64,000 bases of DNA from Artemia franciscana (lineage: Eukaryota; Arthropoda; Branchiopoda; Anostraca; Artemiidae), in contig NC_088868.1 of NCBI RefSeq assembly GCF_032884065.1, positions 38,928,867 through 38,992,866 on the forward strand, given 5' to 3'. The notes below the pieces were generated by a model. That model was not told the origin of the DNA, searched no databases, and saw nothing but the letters and a program-made list of their open reading frames with translations. Positions 46,390-58,868 of the stretch are shown here, piece by piece. Position 1 is the first letter of the stretch. The number at the start of each line of letters is the position of its first letter. The translations under genes and the position numbers were made by a program.

Positions 46390-47100
46390 AATGTACTATA
46401 CAGGACGTTATATAAACTAACATCAAATTATATATATATATTTACGTAGGCTTGACTCTTTAACAAGGCCCCTCCTCAGACATGTAGGTCTGTGCCTACA
46501 TGTCCGAGGGGGGGGGGGGCCTTGTCTTAGAGGTAGCTTACGTATTTAAATATATCATTTCGTTAATGTACATTCCATAAAATATGCTATCATGTACTAC
46601 ATTCCACCATCCGTCTTTTTTTCAATGGCCTTTAACTCTAGTCGTTTGTTGTGCTAGGTTATATAATTAAGTATCATTTATAAGGTAATTTTAGGTATCT
46701 AGGGGTGGGTTAATTCCCTATCTAACCTTTTTATTTTCGTTTACCATTGTTACAATCGTAAATGTGTAAATATAAGTATTCAAATAAATTCTAATTCTTA
46801 CTTACATCCACATCTAGTCAATAAAAACTTAATTCTGCTAATCTCGTCACTCATAGTCATTTTCACTTATTGCATCGTAATGAGGTAATTATCTAGTCAT
46901 ACAAGTTTTAATAACCAAACAAGTAGTCAGTTCAAATTATATAATATTCCGAAGGTACTAGGCATTTACACGATTGATTTTTCATTTCAGAGATCTGTAG
47001 CAACGTCTAGAGAATTTTCTACATTTAAATAAGGCTATCTAGGAGATATTTCACTCTTTACGGCGGCTAGATAATGGGTTTCGGTCGCCTGCAGGGCAGA
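46390..47100. promoter_or_regulatory. Putative mitochondrial control region
   Basis: About 700 AT-rich bases before 12S, where the control region lies in this gene order. They contain TATATATATATTTACGTA, a strong hairpin (46464-46524) and ATGTAC motifs (46394, 46569, 46592). No gene is recognisable. It is only part of a full control region if the segment is truncated at this end. Assignment is by position, not by motif. Confidence 0.5.
46464..46524. promoter_or_regulatory. Large hairpin in the putative control region
   Basis: CAAGGCCCCTCCTCAGACAT GTAGG (46464-46488) pairs with 46495-46524 across a 6-base loop. The right arm's G run has grown to 12-13, so it bulges. TTACGTA lies on both sides (46442-46448, 46538-46544), adding an outer stem. 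Hairpins of this kind mark replication origins in some arthropod mitochondrial control regions; that role here is an inference. Confidence 0.55.
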
Positions 47101-47992
47101 CTGATTTCAATGACCTTATACATCTGATCTCCTATTATTTGTACTTACAAACTTCATTCTTAAACACACTCAAATTAGTAAATAACTCTCATCTTACTTC
47201 TTTGCCTGTGATTATTATTTTTCGTCACAATATCACTTTTATACCCTATTCAGTCCTTCTGATCTTAGCATCTAGTAGTAAAAGTTTGATTCTAGCTAGT
47301 TTATTTACTCTTTCTACGAGTCATATGCAAGATATCATTATAGGTTAGAAGTGCAGTGACTGACATTATTGCCTACTTCTTAGGTATAGCGAATGAAAAG
47401 ATAGGGGGATCATTTTGTGCCAGCATCCGCGGTCATACAAGGCCCTAGAGCAAATATTTTAGGTGAACAGAGGAGCTTTGGGACAAATATATTTTAGACC
47501 AATAAGGGTGAAATCTGTATTTATTCTCTATTTGTTTGAATAAAGCACTCTTTAGATGACCAAACAACTAGGATTAGATACCCTATTAGTTCATTTTTAA
47601 TTAACCTGGGTAGTATTATTTAAACCTAAAGAATTTGGCGGTTTCTAAACTTACTAGAGGAACCTGCCCCGTAAACGACAATCCACGATACAACCAACCC
47701 GTTCTCGTGAAACAGCTTATATACCGTCGTTTAGGGGATTAAATAAATAACTGCTCTTAATTGCTTAGGCTAATAAATCAGATCAAGGTGTAGCTTATGT
47801 CCGGGAGAGGGTGGGTTACAATAAGAACTTAAACGGAATTTCCATTTTATCATGGAGAAGAAGGTGGATTTAGAAGTAAGGCCTATCAACCTGAAGGAGG
47901 CTCTGAGAAATGTACACATCGCCCGTCGCTCTCTTGTCCGAAGAGATAAGTCGTAACAAAGTAGGTATACCGGAAGGTGTGTCTTGAAAGGG
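47100..47992 (+). rRNA. rrnS: Mitochondrial 12S (small subunit) rRNA
   Basis: It carries the near-universal GTGCCAGCATCCGCGGTCAT (47417-47436), ACTAGGATTAGATACCCTAT, GGTAGTATTATTTAAACCTA, ACACATCGCCCGTCGCTCTC and the 3' end AAGTCGTAACAAAGTAGG and ACCGGAAGGTGTGTCTTG. The 3' end is set by tRNA-Val at 47993. The 5' end is an estimate from the usual distance to the GTGCCAGC block. Confidence 0.92.
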
Positions 47993-48050
47993 AGGGAGTT
48001 TGAATAAACATTTTGCTTACATTAAAAAGATACTCTTGAGAGTGCTCTCT
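47993..48050 (+). tRNA. trnV: Mitochondrial tRNA-Val (UAC)
   Basis: Acceptor AGGGAGT pairs with GCTCTCT (one G-U style pair). The anticodon stem is TTTTG/TAAAA with loop CTTACAT. It lies between 12S and 16S as expected. Confidence 0.85.
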
Positions 48051-49205
48051 AAATCTTTATTTACAAATTTATTTAAAACAACATTATATAAGTAAAAGAA
48101 TTGAATTTATTCGAGGTCTAAGTACTGAAAAGGAAAGTCCACTAATTACAAAAAAGTTATTGTTTGTACCTTTTGTATCAGGGTTTATTAAATTTCTACC
48201 TTTATTGCCGAATCCCGAAATAAGGTGATCTATATTGGTTAAAGATGATTGTTTCATAAATCTCTTCAAGACCGATATCGTTGTGAAAAATATTTCGTAC
48301 CTTTATATCTGGTTGGCAGAATACTCCTTTAGGGTACTCCGCAAGGAAGATTTTCTAGGGGACGAGCTCTAGAAAAAATTATATTATAATATCAAGAAAA
48401 ACATGATTAGGCTTAAAAGTTGCCTCGGTTTAATAACCATTGTTACTAAAATGATAATTTCAAAATAATTAATTCAGACTAGCCGATGCTAATTACACAA
48501 ATCTAGCAATCATAATGATAGAATTAGTAGAACTATAAATGCACTTAACATAATTTTTCTCATAAAATCCCAAAGGAATTCGGCAAAACTCATCTCCGCC
48601 TGTTTAACAAAGACATCGCCTCTTAACTTTGGGAGGTCGAGTCTGCCCACTGATGAATTAAAGGGCCGTGGTATACTGACCATGCGAAGGTAGCATAATC
48701 ATTAGCCTTTTGATTTGAGGCTGGAATGAATGGTTTGACGAGAGATGGTCTGTCTCTTCGATTAAATTGAAGTTAATCTTTAAGTGAAAAAGCTTAAATG
48801 TACTTGGAGGGCGATAAGACCCTATAGATCTTTACATTTAATTCTTTTGTCTTGCGGCATGTAATTAGACAGATTAAAATAATGTTTGGTTGGGGCGACG
48901 GTAAGAACAGAATAAACACTTACAACATAAACACATCAATAAATGACCATTGATCCTTAGATGAATAAAGACCAAGTTACCTTAGGGATAACAGCGTAAT
49001 TCTTTTTGAGAGTTCAAATCGACAAAAGAGTTTGTGACCTCGATGTTGGTTCAGGGACCCTACTCGGTGCAGCAGCCCAGAAAGGCAGTCTGTTCGACTA
49101 TTAAACCCCTACGTGATCTGAGTTCAGACCGGCGTAAGCCAGGTTAGTTTCTACCCCCAAGGCAAATATATTCATGATAGTACGAAAGGACCTCTTGAGA
49201 TTTTA
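48051..49205 (+). rRNA. rrnL: Mitochondrial 16S (large subunit) rRNA
   Basis: Recognisable peptidyl-transferase domain: AAGGTAGCATAATCATTAGC, GAATGAATGGTTTGACGAGA, TTGGTTGGGGCGACGGTAAG, TAGGGATAACAGCGTAATTC, GACCTCGATGTTGG and AGTACGAAAGGACC. Ends are set by tRNA-Val and tRNA-Leu(CUN). Confidence 0.93.
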
Positions 49206-49269
49206 TGTCAGCTTGGCAGATAAATGCGTTAGATTTAGGATCTATTTATAAGGAGACCTTAGTTGATAG
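49206..49269 (+). tRNA. trnL1: Mitochondrial tRNA-Leu (CUN, anticodon UAG)
   Basis: TAGAT/ATCTA anticodon stem with loop TTTAGGA; TGTCA and TGATA close the acceptor. It sits between 16S and ND1. Confidence 0.8.
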
Positions 49270-49280
49270 CACTAGCTTAA

Positions 49281-57508: not shown

Positions 57509-57567
57509 GAGACTGCCATCGGCTTCTTAAAGTTGACAACCTTATATTTATTAATAAACTAAGTCTC
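57509..57567 (-). tRNA. trnD: Mitochondrial tRNA-Asp (GUC)
   Basis: GAGACT pairs with AGTCTC; the anticodon loop is TTGTCAA. Confidence 0.85.
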
Positions 57568-57572
57568 TATAC

Positions 57573-57635
57573 CATAGGGGGTAATTACCATAAGAGAGCT
57601 TAAGAGGCTACCGCTTGACTTTCAGCCACCCTATG
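57573..57635 (-). tRNA. trnK: Mitochondrial tRNA-Lys (CUU)
   Basis: CATAGGG pairs perfectly with CCCTATG; the anticodon loop is CTCTTAA. Its first bases overlap the COX2 stop. Confidence 0.85.
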
Positions 57636-58317
57636 AAATTTGTAACTCAAGTCACTTTAGAAAGTCTCTCTCTCCAACAGCTTCAATCACGATAGGTATA
57701 AAACTATGTCCAGATCCACAAATTTCGGAACATTGCCCATAAAATACTCCGGGTATATTTACTAGAAGTCTGGACTGATTAAGCCGGCCTGGGACTGTAT
57801 CCATCTTAATACCTAGAGATGGCACAGCTCATGAGTGTAGAACGTCATCTGAAGTAATCATCAGACGGATAGCTTGATTATAGGGCACTGGTATACGATT
57901 GTCCACATCAAGTAAACGATATATACCGGTAGAAAGTTCATTTGAAGGGATTATGTATGAATCAAATTGAATATCGTCAAAATCAGAGTATTCATAGGAT
58001 CAGTATCACTGATGCCCCGTTACTTTAATAGTCAAAGCAGGATTATGAATTTCATCAATTAAATAGAGAAGACGAATAGAAGGAAGGGCAATAGCTACTA
58101 AAATAACAGCAGGAATAACGGTTCAAACCGTCCCGATTGCCTGACCATCAAGTAGATAACGAAGGAGAAATTTATTAGAAAACAATGCAGCTAAGAAAAA
58201 GCCAACAAGAGAAGTAATTAAGATTACCACTAGTAAAGCATGGTCATGGAAAAAAATAAGTTGTTCTATGAGAGGCGAATTCCCATTTTGTAAACCTAGT
58301 TGGAATCATTGAGACAC
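57631..58317 (-). CDS. COX2: Cytochrome c oxidase subunit II, mitochondrial code
   Basis: 228 residues plus TAG. The GTG start lies directly against tRNA-Leu(UUR) and aligns VSQWFQLGLQ with the usual M-S-T-W-x-x-LGLQ. It contains [33 protein letters not shown] and the CuA site [14 protein letters not shown]. Fully open. Confidence 0.94.
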
Positions 58318-58382
58318 TTTTAAAGGGGGTACCCATCTTTGGAGCTTAAATCCAACGCATACGTGTTTCTGCCACTTTAAAA
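58318..58382 (-). tRNA. trnL2: Mitochondrial tRNA-Leu (UUR, anticodon UAA)
   Basis: TTTTAAA pairs with TTTAAAA; anticodon arm TTGGA-TTTAAGC-TCCAA. It lies between COX1 and COX2, a hallmark of the pancrustacean order. It overlaps the COX1 stop. Confidence 0.9.
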
Positions 58383-58868
58383 TGTAGAGATCATAGTAAT
58401 TTTTTCATAGGAGTGATCAGCAGGCGGATGAGGATGATTTCATTCCACACTTGATCTTAAATTAAGTGAAAAAATATTAATTCGTTTAGCGATCATGGCC
58501 TCTCAAATACAAAAAATAAATATTAATGTAGCAATTATAGATATAACTCTCCCTAGTGAAGAAATTACATTTCATGAAGCATATGTATCTGGATAATCTG
58601 CGTAACGACGTGGTATTCCAGCGAGACCTAAGAAATGTTGAGGGAAAAAAGTTAAGTTTACTCCTAAGAATATAATAAAGAAATGTACCTTAAGAAGAAA
58701 TTGATTCATTCTTAATCCAGTCATTAGAGGAAATCAATGTACAAATCCTGCTATGATAGCAAAGACAGCACCCATTGATAAAACATAGTGGAAATGGGCA
58801 ACTACATAATAAGTATCATGGAGAACAATATCAATTCTAGAGTTCGACAGGACAACTCCTGTAAGCCC
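58377..58868 (-). CDS. COX1: Cytochrome c oxidase subunit I, 3' part only (164 codons)
   Basis: Begins abruptly at [20 protein letters not shown] and reads through [16 protein letters not shown] (heme/Cu-ligand His region), [11 protein letters not shown] and HPPADHSYE to TAA. About two thirds of the gene (N-terminal side) is missing. The preceding codon is not the expected Gly but belongs to the adjoining nuclear repeat, which fixes the breakpoint at 58868/58869. Confidence 0.95.

Follow-up and report, generated by a model that had tools for sequence, protein, structure and literature searches.

The 64,000-nt stretch of Artemia franciscana DNA analysed here (assembly GCF_032884065.1, contig NC_088868.1, positions 38,928,867 to 38,992,866 of the forward strand; hereafter the window) carries, at 46390-58868, one collinear mitochondrial block of about 12.5 kb, which amounts to 79% of a 15.8-kb mitogenome. 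Judging from the assembled sequence, this block is very probably a real and young nuclear mitochondrial DNA segment (numt), i.e., one linear fragment of Artemia mitochondrial DNA that now resides in the nucleus. Read from the minor strand, it comprises part of the control region, both ribosomal RNA (rRNA) genes, all 16 transfer RNA (tRNA) genes expected there and 12 of the 13 protein genes, whole or in part. Its mitochondrial homology is contiguous and in mitochondrial order, as expected of a numt, and the gene order and strands fit the pancrustacean arrangement. Outside the block, the window consists of animal nuclear DNA with many tandem and dispersed repeats. An initial annotation, made from the letters alone, had described a block of this size in repeat-rich nuclear DNA, with twelve protein genes or parts, both rRNAs and many tRNAs; Pfam, Rfam, ARAGORN and PDB matches, together with the flanking repeats, bear this out, ND6 being counted by position. 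ND2 is absent and COX1 is cut on its 5′ side, and the missing portion of the circle is one stretch that includes both. In Artemia, trnI and trnQ are placed between trnW and trnC, according to PMC10127424, so that both fall inside the missing stretch, which is therefore contiguous, in agreement with the earlier proposal of one linear fragment.

The largest lesion lies in ATP6 (56728-57351, minus strand). The ATP synthase of A. franciscana is available as PDB entry 9B0X (PMC12325954). ATP6 and ATP8 of the window match its chains 9b0x_N (E 1e-118) and 9b0x_Q (E 8e-30), respectively, both with 96% identity, and differ from them at 8 of 208 aligned residues in ATP6 and at 2 of the 52 residues after the start codon in ATP8. 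This agreement places the block in the genus Artemia. The A. franciscana ATP6 chain ends in QSYVFMTLMTLYASE; in the window, QSYV is followed by T-GAA-TAA-TG, and the C-terminal FMTLMTLYAS, located in a region common to other PDB ATP6 chains (YVF..L..LY), is missing. The GAA-TAA resembles the normal last codon and stop of ATP6, overlapping the start of COX3. About 29 nt thus appear to have been lost from the 3′ end at approximately 56727/56728, a size deduced from the protein. The stop is now out of frame, and the ATP6 frame continues into COX3 (55936-56721, minus strand; itself open; Pfam PF00510, 4.6e-116) within one 483-aa open frame, which makes a natural shortening of ATP6 unlikely. The change can hardly be a consensus or homopolymer error, and what is left is not a working mitochondrial gene.

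The two other lesions affect cytb (50254-51387, minus strand), which was delineated from three open reading frame (ORF) pieces, their Pfam matches and the positions of two tracts. The frame shifts at a C10 tract (50884-50893) and at an A8 tract (51235-51242). As read, cytb contains two internal stops; among the 20 tract-length combinations tried, C8/A7 or C11/A7 gives none. Because either restores the frame, the C tract would be two bases too long or one too short, and the A tract one base too long. With the end of ATP6 deleted and cytb out of frame, the block is not a working copy of mitochondrial genes, and in the standard code it holds a single ORF of at least 160 aa (53961-54746). The earlier description of open frames and almost undamaged sequence is accurate for the full-length frames elsewhere and has to be corrected at these three places. 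As a numt, the block has no function in the nucleus: its genes follow the mitochondrial code, three breaks disrupt ATP6 and cytb, and COX1 is truncated.

Nuclear repeat DNA lies on either side of the block within one gap-free stretch: the window has two scaffold gaps of 100 N each (38340-38439 and 45424-45523) and is free of N from 45524 to 64000. The right edge can be placed exactly. The COX1 C-terminal part (58377-58868, minus strand; about 163 codons; Pfam PF00115; aligning to residues 353-511 of PDB COX1 chains) is cut at a glycine codon, 58866-58868. What follows, from 58869 on, belongs to a nuclear repeat unit and is 95.3% identical to 60304-61388 and 96.9% identical over 194 bp to a copy at 63045. 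The sharp junction previously placed at 58868/58869 is thereby confirmed. Similarity to later copies identifies 58869-60303 (plus strand) as the first copy of a tandem unit of about 1.43 kb, truncated by the junction; because the repeat extends further upstream in two other copies, this first unit has been cut by the mitochondrial DNA. The tandem array of this unit (58869-63238) includes two uninterrupted runs of T, 61 and 53 bases long, and its second unit seems to be interrupted by about 1.29 kb at 61389-62673.

On the left, a dispersed repeat copy at 45524-46175 (minus strand), with a palindromic end centred near 46045, is inverted relative to the right-hand copies in blastn, which it matches at 93.1% (60145-59635), 94.3% (61388-61066) and 94.4% (62886-62674). 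This flank is also self-inverted over 45914-46175 at 93.5%, the short arm being 89.5-93.8% identical to the right-hand copies. An Rfam MIR949 match on the palindromic repeat (45993-46097, minus strand; E 3e-8; 53.9 bits, below the gathering score of 100) is taken as a putative effect of the repeat's hairpin. Next comes a dispersed repeat family (46176-46310, strand unassigned), recognised by matches of 36-52 bp and 75-80% identity at seven or more other places in the window, six of which were aligned. The junction zone that follows (46311-46390, no strand) can be assigned to neither nucleus nor mitochondrion and holds an 18-bp tandem repeat (TRF, 46334-46376). Homology to the dispersed family ends near 46310, and the true left edge therefore lies within about 46311-46390; the edge first drawn at 46390 is near the right place but good only to about 80 bp. 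The sequences to the left and right do not complement each other as the halves of a single repeat unit, a mismatch that could reflect either an insertion with loss or rearrangement of the flanks, a location at the end of the array, or a false left join.

The age of the transfer was approached through 14 coding pieces from 12 genes, which were divided at the lesions (2,893 codons, or 8,679 nt). These pieces were drawn from stop-to-stop frames and are stop-free by construction; the informative point is that a frame spans the full gene by Pfam or PDB, which is less certain for ND6 and for the short start of ND4. Outside the lesions, the frames span whole genes with no premature stop. A random substitution was computed to create a stop in 2.3-3.2% of cases, and because the full-length frames carry none, neutral change is bounded at 93-132 substitutions or fewer, i.e., 1.1-1.5% of the 8,679 nt, at 95%. 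Had the ten ATP6 and ATP8 differences all been neutral changes made after the transfer, the coding sequence should have acquired 3.8-4.8 stops; it has none (P 0.008-0.023). The stop count thus rules out that all ten arose in this way; part of them still could have. We infer that the transfer was recent, and its apparent youth could be exaggerated by polishing with mitochondrial reads.

Composition was compared as well. The G+C content of the block at codon positions 1, 2 and 3 (40.96, 35.78 and 29.97%; 35.58% for the block overall) still resembles that of Artemia mitogenomes, for which PMC10127424 gives 41.22, 36.52 and 30.14% in A. sinica and 41.15, 36.40 and 30.59% in A. franciscana. The block is nearer to these two species and lies below A. 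urmiana and A. tibetiana, mostly at positions 1 and 3 (PMC10127424), and it is far from the A. persimilis mitogenome with its overall G+C of 44%. For a block that lacks ND2 and most of COX1, such an affinity within Artemia is a hint only. Among the papers listed, a search for primers or restriction patterns that could tell the species yielded nothing usable.

It has to be considered whether the numt is older than it looks, its substitutions having been overwritten by polishing with abundant mitochondrial reads. This sub-case of a nuclear insertion appears rather unlikely. Polishing would be expected to leave behind one larger deletion and two altered tracts in frames otherwise free of stops, and published Artemia assemblies that were polished provide a possible precedent (Pilon in PMC11492255; Racon and Merfin in PMC10827361). 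However, two tract indels and one deletion also fit a young numt.

An assembly chimera is also unlikely. In that case mitochondrial reads would have been falsely joined to nuclear repeats at both ends, whether by chimeric molecules, by misassembly or by filling the gap wrongly, and the nuclear locus would not exist. The initial annotation had offered a misjoin beside a young and large numt and had pointed to a scaffold gap close on the left; that gap is indeed found, at 45424-45523, 0.8-0.9 kb from the block. In addition, repeats occupy both junctions, where assemblers err, the frames are nearly all open, and the two cytb shifts fall in homopolymers, the usual long-read error. Yet a chimera requires two independent false joins within one gap-free stretch. 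It would also be expected to carry functional mitogenome sequence, and the deletion of about 29 nt in ATP6, unexpected in an organelle consensus, departs from this (the reference being A. franciscana, not the same animal). An artefact in which one molecule is read back on itself as a hairpin is rejected, as the left and right repeat copies are not identical (93.1-94.4% in the longer matches, 89.5-93.8% in the short arm).

A numt is thus favoured over a chimera because a sequencing error in an organelle consensus would hardly account for the deletion in ATP6. Further support comes from the two joins to nuclear DNA, separate but within the same gap-free stretch, and from flank copies that are not identical; we infer that the junctions are genuine. 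Several points weigh on the other side. The case was built on the assembled sequence, and ATP6 was compared with an A. franciscana chain from the PDB. Consensus error could account for both cytb shifts, which sit in homopolymers. The left nuclear flank extends for only about 0.8-0.9 kb before the scaffold gap, and since the flanks are not halves of one unit, no empty site can be demonstrated. Finally, a genuine deletion-bearing heteroplasmic variant of the mitogenome, not nuclear at all, would account for the mitochondrial gene content and composition but is highly improbable for a block that sits between nuclear repeats, lacks ND2 and part of COX1 and has both ATP6 and cytb broken.

In the usual account, numts form when mitochondrial DNA seals double-strand breaks in the nucleus, mostly via end joining. 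For the Artemia numt, a single linear fragment with one end in the control region and the other within COX1 would have been captured by the nucleus, and such a fragment would explain the block without rearrangement. Capture would most likely have occurred by end joining at a double-strand break beside or within the repeat array. More speculatively, and with low expectation on our part, a single event no older than about one percent of neutral divergence may have captured about four-fifths of the mitogenome, and the insertion may still be polymorphic in populations.

The remaining features of the block are laid out from left to right on the window. The control-region part (46390-47276, plus strand) is identified only by its position beside 12S; to the eye, it holds an apparent hairpin at 46460-46525 that contains a G12 run at 46508. 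The 12S rRNA gene (47277-47988, plus strand) has an approximate 5′ end and an Rfam small-subunit match at 47279-47993, while the ends of the 16S rRNA gene (48052-49205, plus strand) are set by the adjacent tRNAs, with Rfam large-subunit matches at 48591-48747 and 48780-49163. In mitochondrial mode, ARAGORN called 19 tRNAs in the block: the 16 expected (V, L1, S2, P, T, H, F, E, S1, N, R, A, G, D, K and L2) and three extras that overlap others or are intragenic; in bacterial mode it called none within 45000-60000. On the plus strand, the expected set comprises tRNA-Val (47989-48051), tRNA-Leu(UAG) (49206-49270), tRNA-Pro (51882-51944), tRNA-His (53448-53511) and tRNA-Phe, the last heading a cluster at 55131-55507 whose other members (Glu, Ser(GCU), Asn, Arg and Ala) are all on the minus strand. 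Also on the minus strand are tRNA-Ser(UGA) (50183-50251), tRNA-Thr (51944-52005), tRNA-Gly (55874-55934), tRNA-Asp (57507-57568), tRNA-Lys (57572-57635) and tRNA-Leu(UAA) (58317-58382).

Pfam families were assigned to ND1, cytb (in its three frame pieces), ND4L, ND4/ND5, ND3, COX3, ATP6, COX2 and the C-terminal part of COX1. ND1 (49281-50177, plus strand) is an ORF of 298 aa in translation table 5, supported by PF00146 (2.5e-87) and an alignment with PDB 8b9z_H. ND6 (51413-51904, minus strand; ORF 51413-51970), the start of which is uncertain, matched no Pfam family and was assigned by position and frame. ND4L (52010-52267, plus strand; PF00420 and frame) overlaps ND4 (52260-53447, plus strand; PF00361), which is open; the alignment of ND4 with PDB chain 8b9z_M begins only at window residue 48, chain residue 83. 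Because the ND4L/ND4 overlap is the usual one, this short start is taken as a probable lineage difference. Further along, ND5 (53512-55130, plus strand; Pfam and PDB 8b9z_L), with an approximate start, ND3 (55538-55882, minus strand; PF00507) and COX2 (57631-58317, minus strand; PF00116, PF02790 and PDB alignments) are all open. So is ATP8 (57345-57506, minus strand), which is weak in Pfam (E 0.0047, under the curated cut-off) but firmly matched by the PDB chain cited above.

The block can be set against numts already described. Very large inserts are known from the nuclear genomes of other arthropods, the leaf beetles (Chrysomelidae; PMC11856540); these are insects, and their numts reach nearly the whole mitogenome, compared with about 79% in one piece in Artemia. 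Among crustaceans, Exopalaemon carinicauda also has numts, but the longest, at 8,054 bp, is shorter than the Artemia block; that count took in only sequences of at most 98% identity, and a numt as fresh as the present one would have counted as mitochondrial (PMC5532655). The same source lists one 3,800-bp numt for Daphnia pulex. The branchiopod Daphnia magna has numts as well, but as fragments of only 16-182 bp (PMC7699184), and in Eubranchipus, fairy shrimps of Artemia's own order, COX1 and 16S numts are described as pieces of 139 to 387 bp (PMC10127424). For one A. franciscana genome, the authors reported that no assembly fragment represented the complete mitogenome, and they put aside as mitochondrial those scaffolds of at most 15,822 bp with only mitochondrial genes (PMC8406910). 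Among the papers listed by a literature search for numts in Artemia, no title or abstract opening reported one, most subscription papers being outside its reach. In public collections, a conserved 16S pattern had no match in genome contigs or in viral contigs, and scanning viral contigs with the COX2 protein gave two matching stretches and no relative. As far as these sources go, the block is a large and apparently fresh case of a known type of event, longer than the crustacean numts compared.

Artemia is a widely used laboratory and aquaculture animal, and mitochondrial markers underlie its taxonomy. With a nuclear copy of 12.5 kb that is nearly intact, there would be a risk of co-amplification, of confusion with heteroplasmy and of mitochondrial reads being mapped to it. 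A real and young insertion would also be a clear-cut branchiopod case of the capture of a large piece of organelle DNA. Artemia cysts survive drying, and a recent single capture, if true, could be used to test whether the repair of drying-induced breaks pulls organelle DNA into the nucleus.

Elsewhere in the window, open frames of 436 and 395 aa at 16262-17572 and 36332-37519 (plus strand) encode C2H2 zinc fingers; about 20 kb apart, the two share similar 84-bp repeat units. At 41925-44198 (minus strand), a 757-aa open frame with a DUF4371 and a hAT dimerisation region is probably a hAT transposase gene or a derivative of such a gene.

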